A stretch of DNA of 64,000 nucleotides from Methanosarcina barkeri 3 (GTDB taxonomy: Archaea; Halobacteriota; Methanosarcinia; Methanosarcinales; Methanosarcinaceae). Position numbers and translations under genes: made by a program. Positions within the stretch are counted from its first letter, which is position 1, and every line of letters starts with the position of its first letter. The notes beneath the pieces were generated by a model, which did no database searches, had not been told where the DNA came from, and saw only the letters and a list, made by a program, of their open reading frames with translations. Below, in pieces: positions 51,419-64,000 of the stretch. Location of the stretch: contig NZ_CP009517.1 of the NCBI RefSeq assembly GCF_000970305.1, forward strand, positions 3,348,001 through 3,412,000, in the 5' to 3' direction.

Positions 51419-51747
51419 TCAGTTTTCTTCTACTCAGTTTTTATTCTACTCAGTTTTTATTCTACTCAGTTTTTATTCTACTCAGTTTTTATTCTACTCA
51501 GTTTTTATTCTACTCAGTTTTTATTCTACTCAGTTTTTATTCTACTCAGTTTTTATTCTACTCAGTTTTTATTCTACTCAGTTTTTATTCTACTCAGTTT
51601 TTATTCTACTCAGTTTTTATTCTACTCAGTTTTCTTCTACTCAGTTTTTATTCTACTCAGTTTTCTTCTACTCAGTTTTCTTCTACTCAGTTTTCTTCTA
51701 CTCAGTTTTCTTCTACTCAGTTTTCTTCTACTCAGTTTTCTTCTATT
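51419..51747. repeat. 15/16-bp satellite, about 21 copies
   Basis: ATTCTACTCAGTTTTT (16) and CTTCTACTCAGTTTT (15) units; the 16-mers run first and the 15-mers are mostly at the right end. Lies about 130 bases past the stop of the Vhx cytochrome gene. Two long overlapping plus-strand frames are products of this repeat, not genes. Besides the array, the 51315-51875 spacer holds nothing recognisable. Confidence 0.97.
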
Positions 51748-51875: not shown

Positions 51876-52670
51876 TCAGGGCTTTTCCTCTGTAGGGAAA
51901 TACTTTGTTTTAGCTGTAATAACCTCGGAATAATGAGGATCTGAAAGATCTTCTTTTCCTGACCAAAAAATTGCCTTGTGATATTTCCAGACATCAGGGT
52001 CAAGTTCAATAATTCCTACATGAACTACCAGTTCAAAGACAAACCAGTAAGCTGCAAATAGATGTAACAACCGGAGTAAACTCAAGGCATTGAAATTGAA
52101 AAAGGACGCAAAATACCAGGTTACGGAAAGTATCCATGATGAAACAGGGATTCCGAAAGGAGCCCAGTCAAGGCTGTAGAGCACTATTCCTGTAACTGCT
52201 ACAATGACAATTGCTATACTCTCAAGGACAATCAGTATCTTCATTACAGGATGGAGTTTGGTCTCGTAGTGACCAGTAGTTTCGTCATAGATACTAAATG
52301 CCGGATACTTACCTTTTCCAAAAAAGTTCTTGATTATATCAATCAGACGTTCAGCATCAGCTTTTCCGAAAACGTAAGAGTCTTTGAAATGTACTATCCT
52401 GTCTCTGACACTGCATCTTTCTTCTTTGCAAGAAAAAAGATTGTATGGGACCAGAAGCCAGTTTGCAACCAGGAAAAAAGGTACAGCAATCATGTGCAGG
52501 GTTCTGGCAGTATCAAAAGACATAAACTGCCATCCAGCATAAATTTTGAACCCTGTAATGAGAAGGATAAACATGGCAACAAGATGTACCAGATGAGTTA
52601 CCCTCTCAAGCCAGGTATAACGCTCAACAATTATTCTTCCGGAAGCAGGTCTTTCAGCTGATCGTACCAT
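51876..52670 (-). CDS. vhxC: Cytochrome b subunit of second [NiFe] hydrogenase (Vhx)
   Basis: A 264-residue membrane cytochrome b that would pass electrons from the hydrogenase small subunit to methanophenazine. Five hydrophobic helices and conserved histidines ([28 protein letters not shown]) suit a diheme cytochrome b of the Ni/Fe-hydrogenase type. It aligns along its whole length with the Vht copy at 60498 (shared [14 protein letters not shown] and LHP-x-MKILIVLE). Third gene of vhxGAC; ATG at 52670. Confidence 0.93.
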
Positions 52671-52683
52671 ATTACAGCCTCCT

Positions 52684-54474
52684 TTAAACTATCTTGATAA
52701 TACTATCCGGGTGTTTTCCGGTTTTGTCAATTGTATGAACTGCACATGCAAGGCAGGGATCATAAGAACGGGCTGTATGCAGAATTCCGAGAGGATTTGC
52801 ATAATCCACCCCAAGGGCATTTTCGGCAGCTGAGATCTTTGTGCCTATAAGAGCCTGCTCAACAGGACTTGGAATTCCCTGCCCGTTCCGTGGAGCAAGG
52901 TTCCAGGTGCTTGGAACTACAGCCTGATATAACGTTGCCATAGAGTCCGAATCCGTAGCTACCCAATGCCCCAGAGCTCCTCGAGGGGCTTCCCACAGTC
53001 CCATTCCTTCGGAACTTTTTGCCATGGAAAGATCGGTATGCACCGCAACCTTTCCTCCTGCCTGAAGATCCTGCCTGAGCCATTTCAACAATTCAGATAT
53101 CATTATCAGGACTTCCTGCATCCTTGCAACCATGCGGGTATAGTTGTTCGCAGGAGAATAGCCGTTTTCCTGGAAAGTGTTTGCAAGTCCCGTAATAAGG
53201 GGTTCTTTCATAATCAGAAGGCGGGCAAGAGGACCAACCTCACAGGGAATCCCGCCATAATGAGGAGCCTTTACCCAGGAGTACCGGCTTTCCGAACCTC
53301 TGGTATAATCAATTTCATCGGGATTGCCTTCTGGATTCGTAACCCCGTTCCAGGGAGGACGGTCCATTTCCTGATCAAGATAAAAGGCGTGAGTGATATT
53401 TTCCGAAATTTTTCTGTAGTCGAACTTTTCAAGCTGAAAATGTCCGTTCATATATCCAGAAGGAATGACCTTGCTATCCGCAGGGCTTGTAGGATCATAT
53501 CCATCTCCATTCTCGGGCTTGAAAAAGACCCCGTAAGAAAGGAAACCAATCTTATCGGGATCTTTATATCCCCCTGCACGGTCCAGCTTCAGACTAACTG
53601 GTAAGCCAAGCAGAGTCTCTCCAATGAGTTCCGAACCGAAAGCCGCAAAAAGCGGAACGTCTCCCCAGCCTGAAGATAGTGAAAAATTATTGTTCTTAAG
53701 GGAATTATTAAGGAGTTCCTGAAGGCGACCAATAACGAAGTTTACAGCTTTTTCCGGAGAAGAAGCTTTATAAGTATTTTCAATCCAGGTTTCCGGAGAA
53801 ACTCCAAGTGTAAACGATTCAACGAACTTCGCAGTCTCTGAGACAGTTGATATGAGCTTCCCAATGTCTGCAACAGTTGGAGAGTAGACAACTCCTCCTA
53901 CGTGCTGTAACACTGTGTGAGGCATTTTTCCTCCAATAATAGCAATACCTTTATGGAGGCGACGAAACTCACCTAGAGCAGCGACATAAGAAGATCCGGC
54001 AGGATAACGGACACCGTTAAACTGGTTTACGATAGGCATAAAACGTCCGGATAACTCTCCCCATACTGCATTTCCCACATCTCCGTATTTGGCAAGGATA
54101 TCATGGTAAGCCGGGTTTGCAAGGTCAGGACCCCAGAGCACATAGATATGAGCTGCGTGACTGGCGATGTAATTCATTGCCTGGTGGATATTTCGCATGA
54201 CAAGGGCATCTTTGGGAATCTGGTCCGCGACCCCGAAAAGGTCATCCATCGCGTTTGCTGCAGCTATACTGTGGCAAACCGGACAGACTCCGCAGATTCT
54301 CATAGTGAAAAGAACTGCATCCCTGGGATCGTGTTTTTGAAGAGATCTTTCAAAGCCCCTGAAAACCAGACCATTACTCTGGGCATCAGTGATCACTCCG
54401 TCAGCACTGACTTCAGTATTGATTCTATAATGCCCTTCAATTCTTGAAAGAGGATCTACGGTCACCTGTACCAT
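52684..54474 (-). CDS. vhxA: [NiFe] hydrogenase large subunit (Vhx)
   Basis: A 596-residue group 1 [NiFe] hydrogenase large subunit. Both Ni-Fe ligand motifs are intact: [10 protein letters not shown] (Cys61, Cys64) and DPCLACAVH (Cys574, Cys577, His580). The 16-residue tail after His580 ([16 protein letters not shown]) must be cut by a maturation protease; no protease gene follows in this set, so VhtD may serve. The start overlaps the vhxG stop by one base (TAATG), with GGAGGTGAG upstream. Catalytic residues look functional, unlike the small subunit partner. Confidence 0.95.
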
Positions 54475-55634
54475 TACTGCTCACCTCCTGGCTTTCCTGA
54501 AGTGCTTTCTTCAGTCGTGCCTTCGTTTTCCTCCGGCTTTTTCAAAACCGTTCTTCTTAAGGCATGGGCACCTGCAGCAATAAGGCCACCTGCTATTGCA
54601 ACACCTGCTATGGTATCTAGGTTAGTATCGACAATTCCGGCATCTTCAATTTCCACATAAAAAGGTCTGGTGCTGTCCGGAAAACCCGGTTGCACACAAC
54701 CTATACATGGAGAACCGGCCTGCGGACAGAAATTTACATGATCGTTCCAGTGACGTATAGCACAGTCAGCATGGGAGTAAGGCCCTTTGCACCCAAGTTT
54801 CCAGAGACATTTTGGTCCGCCTACTGTCGTTTCGAACTCTCCTTTATCATAGTATCCACGACGCGGACAGTTGTCGTGTACTGTATGGTCTGGAGGGTAA
54901 AAAACTTTAGGACGTTTCCAGTGATCCAGGACTTGAGGAAAATCATCAGGTACTTTGATTTTTCCGAGAACGACTGCTCCTATGGTTAAAAATACCCAGT
55001 CCGGATGAGCAGGACAGCCATTAACATTGATAACAGGTGTGTCTATTCCAAGCAAGTCTACAATTCCCTTTGACGCATCCTCCAGAGTAAAAGCAACTCC
55101 CCGGTGATCCATAAGTCCGACTATATCACTTTCAGCAGCATTTACTCCACTATTGGTTGCACACTGTCCGATTGCAACAATTAGTGAGGCGTTCTTTGCA
55201 GCTTTCTCGAAAGTATCTTTATAGATCTTTCCTCCGAGAACCATATATTTTCCGGAACCGTGAGGCCCGTTTGCGATTGCACCTTCGGCAATAAGAACGT
55301 AGTCTTTTTCTTTATCCAGAATTTCCTCAAGCAGGATTTCGGAATTGAGATCACTCGTATTTGCAAGTTTTCCATCTACAAAAATTCCCTGCTGCATCAT
55401 CAGTACTTCCTGATAGAGCAGATTGAGATTAAAAATCTGGAGAAACTCTATAATGTCAGGATTTACCCCGTCCAGCATTGAGATACTACATCCCGAATCC
55501 ATTACTCCATGAAGCCAGAGTACTTTGGTTTCAGGTAGTCCACTGAGGGCTTTTGCTATATCACTTTTATATGTTTGTAAAAATAGCGAAGCTCCCAGTA
55601 CACCAACGGCTTTTATAAAGGTCCGTCGATCCAT
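54474..55634 (-). CDS. vhxG: [NiFe] hydrogenase small subunit (Vhx), altered proximal-cluster site
   Basis: A 386-residue Tat-exported small subunit (RRTFIKAVG at residues 3-11) that would carry three Fe-S clusters from the active site to cytochrome b. Medial and distal cluster motifs (CLWKLGCKGPYSHADC, CPQAGSPCIGC) are intact, as is NGCPAHPDW. The proximal motif, ECTGCS in the family, reads MDSGCS: Asp46 replaces the first Cys and Met45 the Glu thought to relay protons. Upstream in-frame codons look like the usual pre-Tat leader but contain no start before a stop. A C-terminal helix (about 344-362) anchors it. Confidence 0.9.
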   Translation of the reverse strand: MDRRTFIKAVGVLGASLFLQTYKSDIAKALSGLPETKVLWLHGVMDSGCSISMLDGVNPDIIEFLQIFNLNLLYQEVLMMQQGIFVDGKLANTSDLNSEILLEEILDKEKDYVLIAEGAIANGPHGSGKYMVLGGKIYKDTFEKAAKNASLIVAIGQCATNSGVNAAESDIVGLMDHRGVAFTLEDASKGIVDLLGIDTPVINVNGCPAHPDWVFLTIGAVVLGKIKVPDDFPQVLDHWKRPKVFYPPDHTVHDNCPRRGYYDKGEFETTVGGPKCLWKLGCKGPYSHADCAIRHWNDHVNFCPQAGSPCIGCVQPGFPDSTRPFYVEIEDAGIVDTNLDTIAGVAIAGGLIAAGAHALRRTVLKKPEENEGTTEESTSGKPGGEQ

Positions 55635-55722: not shown

Positions 55723-55810
55723 ATATATAAAAAAAGGAATCCAATATATTAAAGACTATAGCATCATCAATAACCCGCTTCCTAAGTAACTTACTATGTA
55801 ACGTAGGAAC

Positions 55811-55961
55811 CTGATAAGTACCTGATAAGTACCTGATAAGTACCTGATAAGTACCTGATAAGTACCTGATAAGTACCTGATAAGTACCTGATAAGTACCT
55901 GATAAGTACCTGATAAGTACCTGATAAGTACCTGATAAGTACCTGATAAGTACCTGATAAG
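55811..55961. repeat. 11-bp tandem repeat, about 13.7 copies
   Basis: CTGATAAGTAC repeated without visible mismatch from 55811, ending in CTGATAAG. It lies 75 bases beyond the stop of the DUF1254 gene and upstream of the vhx promoter. The 11-bp period equals about one turn of DNA. Long frames reading SGTYQVLIRYL are produced by the repeat and are not genes. Confidence 0.98.
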
Positions 55962-59901: not shown

Positions 59902-60387
59902 TTAAAGTGAGGAAAAAACCTCTTCCTTAATGAGCTTTATGGCTTTATCCACACCTTTAAGAACATCTGGACTGATTTCCTGCGTAGCTTCCGTAACAAT
60001 CGATCCGATTTCAATCCCAATGACTACAATTTCCGGAAGCTCTTGGACCTGCTCTCCTATTTTCAATACATCTGTAATTGTCAGGTCATGTACTGAAACA
60101 AGAGGATGAAATTCAACACCATCCAGTAAGTCTTTTCCTTCTATACGGTGTACCGAACCCGGAGGGCTGTTAGCCAGAACTGCATCAACTATAATAACTT
60201 TCCTGGCACCATCGAGAAGGTTTAGAAGATCAAGACCACAGACCCCTGCGTCTTCAATATCGACATCTTTGAGGTCTTTAAGTTCGGTTTCGTGAAGAGC
60301 CTCAATGACTTTGATGCCAACACCATCATTTCCCATTAACGGGCTTCCGCAGCCAAGGATGCGTATAGGAGCATTTAGTATAGACAT
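59902..60387 (-). CDS. vhtD: Hydrogenase maturation protease VhtD
   Basis: A 161-residue HycI/HoxM-family endopeptidase that removes the C-terminal tail of the hydrogenase large subunit once nickel is inserted. The motif GCGSPLMGNDGVG and the later DAGVCGLDLL and SVHDLTI supply the three nickel-sensing residues (Asp, Asp, His). ATG at 60387 follows GAGTG; a TTG at 60399 would add four residues. Last gene of vhtGACD. As vhxGAC has no such gene, it may serve both sets. Confidence 0.94.
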   Translation of the reverse strand: MSILNAPIRILGCGSPLMGNDGVGIKVIEALHETELKDLKDVDIEDAGVCGLDLLNLLDGARKVIIVDAVLANSPPGSVHRIEGKDLLDGVEFHPLVSVHDLTITDVLKIGEQVQELPEIVVIGIEIGSIVTEATQEISPDVLKGVDKAIKLIKEEVFSSL

Positions 60388-60438
60388 ATTTTCACTCAAA
60401 AAGGAGTTAAAAAGGTATACAGGCTTTCAATATGCCTG

Positions 60439-60497: not shown

Positions 60498-61262
60498 TCA
60501 AGGCCTTTCCTCTGTAGGAAGGTACTTTGGGATAACCTCTGAGTAGTGAGTATCTGACAGATCCTCTTTTCCTGTCAGGAAGATAGCTTTGTAGTATTTC
60601 CAGACATGAGGGTCGAACTCCAGGATACCGACATGCACTACCAGTTCAAAAACAAACCAGTAGGTCAGCAGCAGGTGAAGTAACCTGAGGAACTGCAGGG
60701 CAGACAGGTTGAATAGAGGTGAAACAAAACCTGTTACAGTCAGGATCCATGAGGCTATAGGAAGGCCGAAAAGCGACCAGTCGAGCTTGTAAAGCACAAT
60801 ACCTGATAATGCAATGAAGAAGATAGCTGTACCTTCAAGCACAATCAGGATCTTCATCAAGGGATGAAGTTTGGTCTTATAGTGGCCAGTAGTCTCATCA
60901 TAGATACTGAATGCAGGATATCTGCCTTTCCTGAAGAAGTTACCAATTATACTGCCAAAGCGAGCTGCATCCTTAGGACCGAAGATATAATGGTCCGTAA
61001 AGTGCGAGATCTTTCCCATAAATCCGTGGCCTTCAGAGAAAATATTGTAAGGGATAAGGATCCAGTTCACTGCAAGCAGGAACGGGACCGCTATCATGTG
61101 AAGCCCACGGGCGGTATGGAAACTCATAAAGTCCCATCCCGTATAGATCTTTAATCCGGTGATGATGAGCACTAACATTGCAACAGCGTGGACAGTATGA
61201 GCTATCCTGTCAGTTACGGTATAGCGCTCAACAACCATTGACCGGTTGTCTTTGGATTTCAT
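60498..61262 (-). CDS. vhtC: Cytochrome b subunit VhtC
   Basis: A 254-residue membrane cytochrome b of the methanophenazine-reducing hydrogenase, coupling H2 oxidation outside to quinone-like methanophenazine reduction and so proton translocation. Conserved histidines lie in [23 protein letters not shown] and VVHVGIL. GGAGATG precedes the ATG at 61262 by seven bases. It is co-oriented with vhtA, with a 25-base gap, and is a full-length homologue of the cytochrome at 51876. Confidence 0.95.
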
Positions 61263-61287
61263 TGTGGGTCATCTCCTTGTACTGTAT

Positions 61288-63063
61288 TTAGAGTATTCTT
61301 AGAGTATTTGGAGCGTTTTTCCCAGTCAGGTCAATGGTGTGTACTGCACAGGAAATGCAAGGATCATAGGACCTGCCCATATGGAAGATGCCAACCGGAT
61401 TGGTATAATCGACATCTCCTACTGGGTTGATTTTTGAACCAATGAGAGACTGTTCGAGAGGACCAGGAATGCCTTTGCTGTCTCTTGGGGACATTAACCA
61501 GCTACCCGGAACTATACACTGGTAGTTGGTAACCTTTCCATCGCTGCCAGCAGAGACCCAGTGACCAAGAGCTCCACGAGGTGCTTCCCATAGGCCCATT
61601 CCCGAATTATTTTTAGCTGCATTAAGGTCTATAGGCACGGAAATCTTGCCGTTGGGGTTGTAATCAACTGTTACCCAGTTGAGAAGTTCATATGCGAGAA
61701 TTGCAGTTTCCTGCATACGAGCCAGCATCCTTGTGTAAACGTTAGCTGCAGAATAACCTTTCTCATTGAAAGCCTGAGCAAGACCGGTTACGAGAGGCTC
61801 TTTGATATTTAGCATGCGTGCAAGAGGCCCGACTTCACCTGCAATTCCGTCATATCTGGGAGCCTTGTCCCAGCTGTACTGGCTGTTCGAACCTCCTGTG
61901 TAGACGATTTTACTTGGATCAGTAAGCGGAACGGTTTCACCTTTTGCTGGTGCGAGGTCGTTGACACTGTTCTGGTAGAAGGAGTGAGCAGTGCTCTCCG
62001 TAATCTTTTCCGGATCAAATTTCTGATATTCTAGCTTTCCTGATACCACGCCTGATGTGAAAATACGGTCTCCTGCCGGGCTCTTCGGGTCGTATCCGTC
62101 CTTGTACTTGTAGTATCCACCATATGCAACGAAGCAGATCTTTGAGGGATCCTTGTACCCACCGATGGTATCATGCTTAAGGCTTGCTGGAAGGCCAAGA
62201 ATCTTTTCTCCTACAAGTTCCGAACCGAAAGCTGCATAGAACTCTACATCTCCCCAACCTGCGTCTTTGGAGAAGTCATTTGAACTCGTTGATTTGTTAA
62301 TAAGGTCAGTCAGGTGTTCGGTAACAAAGCTTACTGCTTTTTGAGGAGAACTTGCCTTATAAGTATTTTCGATCCAGGTATTGAAATCAACTTTCAGAGT
62401 ATGTTTGGACACGAAGTCCATGACCTGCAGATAGTAAGAGGAAAGTTTGGTTATATCTGCGACAGTAGCCGGGTAAGTATATCCACCTGGGTAAAGGGAT
62501 GAAGGACCAGGCATTCTACCGGCAATAAGTGCAATAGCTTCCTGAAGGCGTTTCTTTTCAGGGATTGCTGCAAGATAGGAACTTCCTACCGGTACAGCCA
62601 CACCATCCATCTTGTAGCTGATTGGGGCAAACCTTCCGACCATTTCTTTCCAGACTGCGTTTCCGGTGTCTCCCAGTGTTGTAAGTACCTTTTTGTACGC
62701 CGGGTTTGCAAGGTCAGGACCAAAGAGGACATATATATGAGTTGCATGGCTTGCAACCATATTCAGGCCCTGGAAAATATTCCTCATCATCAGAGCGTCT
62801 TTTGGAACGCTTTCGGCCACGCCATAAAGATTGTCAAGAGCGTTTGTGGATGCCAATCCATGAGAAAGAGGACAGACACCACAAATTCTCTGTGTAAGAA
62901 AAGCTGCATCTCTTGGGTCCTGATTTTGAAGGATGCGTTCAAAACCTCTGAATATAAGGGAAGATGACTGGGCATCGGTAATAAAACCGTCAGCACCTAC
63001 TTCGGTGGATATACGCTGGTGGCCTTCAATTCTGGTTAAGGGATCAACTGTAACGTTTACCAT
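61288..63063 (-). CDS. vhtA: [NiFe] hydrogenase large subunit VhtA
   Basis: A 591-residue large subunit of the F420-nonreducing, methanophenazine-linked [NiFe] hydrogenase. Ni-Fe ligands are in [10 protein letters not shown] (Cys61, Cys64) and DPCISCAVH (Cys569, Cys572, His575). The 16-residue C-terminal tail ([16 protein letters not shown]) is the substrate of VhtD. ATG at 63063 is seven bases after the vhtG stop, with a GGAGAG-type ribosome-binding site in the end of vhtG. It is clearly homologous to the Vhx copy at 52684. Confidence 0.97.
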
Positions 63064-63070
63064 TTTTCAC

Positions 63071-64000
63071 TCACTCTCCTTTTCCCATTCTCCTAACAGC
63101 ATGTACGCCTGCAGCAACTGCAGCTGCTCCGACCGCAACTTTGGCTACTGTGTCAATATTTGTTCCGGCAATTCCCACATCTTCACGTTCAACATATAAG
63201 GGCCTTGAGGAATCTGGGAAGCCAGGCTCGACACAGGCAATACAGGGTCCGCCTGCCTGGGTACACATGCTTACCGAACCATTCCATCTGCGAATTCCAC
63301 AGTCTGCGTGAGAATAGGGAGCTTTACAGCCTAATTTCCACAGGCACTTCTCTCCACCGACCTCAGTATCGAATTCTCCACGGTCATAGTATCCGCGGCG
63401 TGGGCAGTTTTCGTGCACTGTGTGATCAGGGGGGAAGAAAACCATTGGCCTGCCGTAATCGTCCACAACTGATGGAATATCTTCAAGCTTAATCTTTCCA
63501 AGGATTACCGCTCCCAGGGTCAAAAGAACCCAGTCAGGGTGAGCAGGGCAACCAGGAATATTAATTACTGGTTTATCAATCCCAAGTTCCTTAAGCATGC
63601 CTTTTGAAGAATCTTCCTTTGCAAAAGCTACTCCTCTGTAGTCAGTATCCTTGGCAACCTCGCTATCTGCAGAAGTGATTCCTCCCCAGCAGGCACAGGC
63701 TCCGACTGCAATGACAGCAATTGCGTTCTTTGCAGCCTCTCCAAGGCTTTCCTTGAAAGTCTTGTTTCCAATAACCAGATAGCGTCCGGAACCATCCGGA
63801 CCGTTTGGAATTGAGCCCTCAACGACCAGGAAATATTTGCCTTCTTTATAAAGGTCTTCAAGGAGAATCTCAGAGTTAAGCTCGGAGGTGTTTACAAGCT
63901 TACCATCGTTCCAGATTCCCTGCTGTGCACAAAGAGTCTCATGGAAAGCGAGATTGACATTGAGCTTTTGTAGTGCCTGTACAAGGTCAGGATTGCCTGC
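63071..64000 (-). CDS. vhtG: [NiFe] hydrogenase small subunit VhtG (5' part outside window)
   Basis: Open from the stop at 63071 to the window edge: 309 residues, with no start in view, so the N-terminal Tat signal and the first proximal-cluster motif are missing. The visible part has GACACWGG, PGCPAHPDW, the medial/distal motifs CLWKLGCKAPYSHADC and CTQAGGPCIAC, and a C-terminal anchor helix (VAVGAAAVAAGVHAVRR). It carries electrons from the VhtA site to VhtC. Compared with VhxG it keeps the ACWGG segment that VhxG has changed. Confidence 0.95.
   Translation of the reverse strand, partial: AGNPDLVQALQKLNVNLAFHETLCAQQGIWNDGKLVNTSELNSEILLEDLYKEGKYFLVVEGSIPNGPDGSGRYLVIGNKTFKESLGEAAKNAIAVIAVGACACWGGITSADSEVAKDTDYRGVAFAKEDSSKGMLKELGIDKPVINIPGCPAHPDWVLLTLGAVILGKIKLEDIPSVVDDYGRPMVFFPPDHTVHENCPRRGYYDRGEFDTEVGGEKCLWKLGCKAPYSHADCGIRRWNGSVSMCTQAGGPCIACVEPGFPDSSRPLYVEREDVGIAGTNIDTVAKVAVGAAAVAAGVHAVRRMGKGE

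Follow-up and report, generated by a model that had tools for sequence, protein, structure and literature searches.

The small subunit encoded by vhxG, a gene on a Methanosarcina chromosome of 4.56 Mb, has Asp at the position where the vhtG product of the same genome has the first Cys ligand of the proximal Fe-S cluster. Does this substitution mark the decay of a spare gene copy or a working variant of a membrane-bound [NiFe] hydrogenase? We analyzed the whole stretch of DNA bearing the gene (64,000 nucleotides; hereafter the window) and compared VhxG with its counterparts in the genus and in other archaea.

The vhxGAC operon and the proximal-cluster motif

The genes for the small subunit, the large subunit and a cytochrome b compose the vhxGAC operon (51876–55634, minus strand). 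vhxG (54474–55634, minus) is open throughout its 386 amino acids, carries the twin-Arg signal MDRRTF and matched the Pfam families NiFe_hyd_SSU_C (PF14720; E 3e-30) and Oxidored_q6 (PF01058). The proximal-cluster motif, M45-D46-S47-G48-C49 (55488–55502, minus), directly follows the residues LHGV and corresponds to ECTGC in VhtG of the same genome, Asp46 occupying the first Cys ligand position. The earlier note had read M-D-S-G-C for E-C-T-G-C, and a base-by-base check of the minus strand confirmed every codon: ATG (55502–55500; M45), GAT (55499–55497; D46), TCG (55496–55494; S47), GGA (55493–55491) and TGT (55490–55488; C49). The third and fourth proximal ligands, Cys158 in GQCATNSG (55161–55163, minus) and Cys207 in NGCPAHP (55014–55016, minus), were invariant in an alignment of 103 rows, and the medial and distal cluster cysteines (256, 276, 282, 291, 303, 310 and 313) were all present in the alignment. 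The O2-tolerant hydrogenases of group 1d have an extra Cys between the two cysteines of the CxxC motif and a [4Fe-3S] proximal cluster; VhxG has Ser47-Gly48 between these positions and is without the extra Cys.

The fold predicted for VhxG is standard for [NiFe] small subunits. In the AF2 model built from 103 rows (pLDDT 79.9 and pTM 0.80, with a pLDDT of ~65–70 in the motif loop), residues 32–334 matched many solved group 1 [NiFe] small subunits with Z of 28–30, and the match to Huc had a Z of 30.4 and an rmsd of 3.0 over 292 aligned residues. An earlier AF2 model from 30 near relatives (pLDDT 51) was set aside.

The large subunit gene vhxA (52684–54474, minus), assigned from its ORF, Pfam and alignment, keeps both sets of Ni-Fe ligands, RICGVC and DPCLAC, as well as a C-terminal extension beyond VHTI, and VhxA therefore needs a protease for maturation. 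vhxC (51876–52670, minus) scored under the family cut-off of the cytochrome b Pfam, yet is homologous to vhtC, and His 26, 29, 59, 94, 140, 203 and 217 are common to the two products. The vht genes (59902 to past the window end, minus) sit 4 kb from vhxGAC and comprise vhtC, vhtA and most of vhtG (60498–64000, minus), of which the last extends past the window end, and the maturation protease gene vhtD of the HycI family (59902–60399, minus). No protease gene was found in the vhx operon, and vhtD was the sole such gene near vhx and vht in the gene scan. Across the whole genome there are just two proteases of the HycI type, VhtD and one whose gene adjoins frh. In G007, another Methanosarcina genome, the single HycI-type protease gene adjoins vhx. 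The operon is flanked by two tandem arrays: a perfect one of 13.9 copies of the 11-base unit ACCTGATAAGT at 55809–55961, 175 bases upstream of vhxG, and one of 20.5 copies of a 16-base unit at 51419–51739, just past vhxC.

Asp and Cys forms of VhxG in Methanosarcina

Among the 31 Methanosarcina genomes searched, 27 possessed vhxG, and no internal stop was found in the gene in any of the 27. The motif was MDSGC in 18 of them and had Cys46 in nine (ECTGC in eight and GCTGC in one), with no hybrid between the two types of motif among the 27 sequences. The four proximal cysteines by which we define small subunits of the Vht/Vhx type are thus complete in nine VhxG and incomplete in 18, including that of the window. 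Under the M-D-S residues, synonymous codons alternate (GAT/GAC and AGY/TCN); the exact recurrence of M-D-S in 18 of 27 genomes, with such variation beneath it, is therefore more than chance or sequencing error. The other Fe-S cysteines of VhxG and the Ni-Fe cysteines of VhxA were intact in the alignment, as had been claimed from the window alone, and every complete VhxA bore RICGVC, DPC..C, the Glu of RIEGH and a protease-cleavable C-terminus.

The genus-wide alignment and the comparison of dN/dS with vht had been proposed in the earlier note, which also doubted plain decay. Median pairwise dN/dS was 0.077 for vhxG and 0.093 for vhxA versus 0.122 for vhtG and 0.141 for vhtA, as calculated with NG86, a simple estimator, from pairs that are non-independent and in some cases have dS >1. 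In the tree of 17 Asp-type rows, fourfold sites had undergone 4.0 substitutions per site; about 32 amino-acid changes were expected at codons 45–47 of these rows under neutrality, and none was seen. The low dN/dS and the lack of change at the motif therefore exclude plain decay, and vhxG is under strong purifying selection. ECTGC in related genomes and stops across strains had been named as signs of neutral decay. Stops were absent from the 27 genomes; Cys46 does occur in a third of them, where it represents an alternative state of a gene under constraint and not a sign of decay. Thus, we regard the Asp-for-Cys substitution in Vhx as probably a working variant, not a broken gene.

Cys46 was found in the distantly related Vhx of G007, G010, G022 and G023, and the Vhx-like genes that another genus of the family carries (G184, G256 and G340) are of the Cys type, as are nearly all other small subunits; therefore, Cys is ancestral. 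In the tree of archaeal small subunits, Vhx formed a clade inside the Methanosarcinaceae part and grouped with Vht. Within Vhx, the full-length tree requires two changes for the Asp form, albeit a single origin was not rejected (AU p 0.069). The trees from separate parts of the gene conflicted with one another, which suggests recombination; the one built from the N-terminal third places the inner clade's five Cys rows in a single group (SH-aLRT 90). A short gene conversion from vht to vhx was ruled out as the source of ECTGC, as the flanking codons are Vhx-like, and the codon alignment offered no support for the idea that M-D-S arose by a compensated frameshift. Positions 119 and 121 of VhxG bear fixed differences between the Asp and Cys forms, for which we do not claim second-shell compensation, as the distant Cys-type Vhx also have Ala.

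Other departures of Vhx are separate from the Asp switch. The earlier note had pointed out that the ACWGG segment is changed to QCATNSG (residues 157–163); the change is real, but QCATN also occurs in VhxG that keep Cys46 and is therefore a Vhx-wide trait not tied to the Asp. Asn replaces an aromatic residue at position 161 throughout Vhx, a position that is aromatic in 112 of 115 other archaeal small subunits, the remaining three being Vhx-like, and many Vhx have Ser for the otherwise invariant Gly at position 162. All VhxA also depart from VhtA at sites that are otherwise invariant, namely E274P, R405H/N and D530N, the last directly after the conserved Pro-Arg, and the substrate or partner of Vhx may accordingly differ from that of Vht.

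Altogether, Vhx shares with Vht/Vho the G-A-C gene order, the twin-Arg signal, the Ni-Fe motifs, the medial and distal cysteines and the cytochrome b histidines, with ~61% identity between the small subunits of Vht and Vhx. On the other hand, Vht keeps ECTGC apart from two Ser exceptions and has its own protease gene, vhtD, whereas Vhx has MDSGC in 18 of 27 genomes, Asn161 for the aromatic residue, VhxA-specific changes and no protease gene. The two exceptions are VhtG of L030 (G016) and L032 (G019), in which Ser replaces the first proximal Cys (ESTGC; codons TCC and AGC, respectively). In G016 and G019, both incomplete assemblies, vhx was not found.

Aspartate at the proximal cluster of other hydrogenases

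When 345 genomes of the phylum were surveyed and the VhtG rows added, 115 small subunits besides Methanosarcina VhxG were obtained. Position 46 was Cys in 104, Asp in nine and Ser in two, and C158 and C207 were invariant throughout. The residue before it was Glu in just 48 of the 115, so that Met in place of Glu, to which the earlier note had also drawn attention, is unremarkable. Eight of the nine Asp46 rows belonged to a single clade of family f7 (QSDSAC or QSDTAC) and one to family f32 (G244; TDNGC). Both fell apart from Vhx in the tree, albeit this was made by a quick method and the f32 row was a long branch. Judging from these placements, the first-position change from Cys to Asp had separate origins in Vhx, in the Geoglobus/Ferroglobus-like clade of f7 and in the archaeal lineage of the f32 row.

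Three genomes of the f7 Asp clade (G054, G073 and G064) are presumably Ferroglobus placidus, Geoglobus ahangari and Geoglobus acetivorans, respectively. Growth on H2 is reported for G. ahangari (PMC4600277). The Asp-type loci of this clade (L166, L168, L170, L172, L174, L176 and L178) resemble vhx in that Asp takes the place of the same, first Cys, the Ni-Fe cysteines are intact and a cytochrome b is the partner, but differ in their separate origin in the tree, the motif QS-D-S/T-A-C, the large-subunit end DLCLAC and the gene order, in which cytochrome b follows the small subunit and precedes the large one (G-A-C in Vhx). Where read, the adjoining large subunit had RICGVC...DLCLAC, and a Cys-type paralogue was found elsewhere in the genome in all five f7 Asp-type genomes for which a second copy was read. 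In the f32 case, an intact large subunit (RICGVC...DPCIAC) and a protease-like gene lie alongside. It is possible, if short of an even chance, that hydrogenases with first-position Asp form a functional type among those of archaeal membranes, one that has repeatedly been derived from the Cys type and usually occurs beside a Cys-type paralogue. The Asp-bound cluster would then shift the potential of the second enzyme, e.g., to suit trace H2 or uptake in one direction, and Asp and Cys would be alternative forms in Methanosarcina.

VhxG has MDSGC in G003, G004 and G030, which we take to be M. barkeri. An M. barkeri protein, YP_305362, was listed by Yonemoto (2014; PMC4070099) with Cys changed to Asp at proximal position 1 and the cluster type marked "?", separately from the position 2 case of Geobacter metalloreducens. 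YP_305362 is most likely VhxG; FrhG is a poor candidate, as FrhG of the window's genome reads CTGC. The M. barkeri substitution has thus been published before, as one row of a table. The literature searched, which covered few subscription journals, yielded no account of the genus-wide conservation, of the Asp and Cys forms, of the selection or of the recurrence. Because of its occurrence in YP_305362, Asp at proximal position 1 was mimicked in HynSL of A. macleodii (C78D), which had measurable H2 evolution, and the site tolerated little else (PMC4070099). Unlike Vhx, that variant is an engineered bacterial group 1 enzyme with two further changes and is known from its activity, not from its cluster type. 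A working hydrogenase of M. marburgensis also includes a subunit, FrhG, in which one proximal Cys is replaced by Asp60 (PMC3591093). The active A. macleodii variant and the recurrent origins beside intact large subunits make it plausible that Asp46 is a ligand, as the earlier note had supposed.

The same note had likened the motif to the 3Cys-1Asp proximal cluster of group 1h. In the alignment with VhxG, the HofK small subunit (5AA5, plasmid pHG1) has C-D-G-D versus DSGC of VhxG. One of the four proximal cysteines is indeed replaced by Asp in both, but HofK keeps the first Cys and has Asp at the second, whereas Asp replaces the first in Vhx, and the group 1h enzymes (HofK, 5AA5; Huc, 7UTD) also differ in their operon and in having O2-exposed hosts. 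The likeness is thus one of kind and does not extend to position. Three archaeal small subunits of family f8 (L156, L158 and L159) read CAGD and so, like group 1h, carry the Asp at the second position of the proximal site; they are scattered among CAGC relatives.

Candidate roles of Vhx

In the M. acetivorans strain JB-MF delta-vht, Vhx did not substitute for Vht. G001, which we take to be M. acetivorans, has VhxG with ECTGC, and the failure of its Vhx is therefore not due to Asp. The fre and vhx operons of M. barkeri are described in the literature as unable to make active enzyme, and hydrogenase activity was absent from a strain left with fre and vhx alone (Mand et al. 2018, cited in PMC13224831). 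In either strain, if the whole vhtGACD was removed, the protease gene vhtD was lost as well. The vhxG promoter of M. barkeri is reported to be silent and its ribosome binding site poor (PMC11409679). In M. barkeri, vhx transcripts are reported to be regulated under acetate stress (PMC6913021). Because the promoter is silent and the operon has no protease gene of its own, we regard the failures to see Vhx activity as weak evidence.

The most economical reading, to which we assign a probability of about one half, is that Vhx is a conserved, conditionally expressed [NiFe] hydrogenase of the methanophenazine type with a 3Cys-1Asp proximal cluster. VhxG-A-C would be a second membrane-bound enzyme, switched on only in conditions that the laboratory has yet to meet and dependent for its maturation on VhtD, the protease it would share with Vht. 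In the Asp-type lineage, Cys 49, 158 and 207 would bind the proximal cluster with Asp46 as the likely fourth ligand, and electrons from H2 would still leave the Ni-Fe site through the proximal cluster, then the medial and distal ones, and go on to haem b and methanophenazine. The carboxylate ligand may alter the proximal potential or leave a labile fourth iron, and so tune the bias or H2 affinity of Vhx away from those of Vht.

Vhx might instead be an active hydrogenase in which Asp46 does not bind iron and the three cysteines hold a [3Fe-4S] cluster of high potential, biasing the enzyme to H2 uptake. In Huc, the proximal cluster is of the [3Fe-4S] kind and the enzyme works at a raised potential (PMC10017518), so that such a site is able to change its cluster type, and in other proteins Cys-to-Asp changes can give a [3Fe-4S] cluster or a labile fourth iron (PMC4070099). 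Mere loss of a ligand, however, predicts varied residues at position 46, where the 115 rows have only Cys, Asp and two Ser, and we consider this rather unlikely. That Vhx is an electron module without H2 turnover, linking another donor or acceptor to methanophenazine, would fit the lack of an H2 phenotype or activity in the published strains, the changes of VhxA including D530N and the Vhx-wide loss of the aromatic residue at position 161. The Ni-Fe cysteines, the RIEGH Glu and the cleavable C-terminus of every complete VhxA nevertheless point to a working Ni-Fe site, which makes such a module a doubtful proposition.

Oxygen tolerance of the group 1h type, suggested in the earlier note on the strength of the shared 3Cys-1Asp set, found no evidence: the Asp sits at another of the four ligand positions, the organisms that carry vhx are strict anaerobes and the accessory genes of HofK are absent around vhx, so that this is very improbable. 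Least credible is the neutral decay of a spare copy. In its favour are the M. barkeri promoter, which is silent, the weak ribosome binding site there, the missing protease gene and the lack of a known phenotype, but the dN/dS of ~0.08, below that of vht, the 27 genomes without stops and the maintenance of M-D-S through synonymous change all speak against it. The vhx genes, set aside as inactive copies, thus prove more constrained than vht, yet are silent in the laboratory, and most of them carry a cluster-ligand change that evolution appears to have made several times in archaeal hydrogenases. With natural Asp and Cys versions of one enzyme in the genus, the effect of the ligand on potential, bias and H2 affinity is directly testable.

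As for the other hydrogenases of the window's genome (G000), two loci, L184 and L185, apparently encode separate Ech-like (EchC) small subunits, both with NSCNGCDIE.
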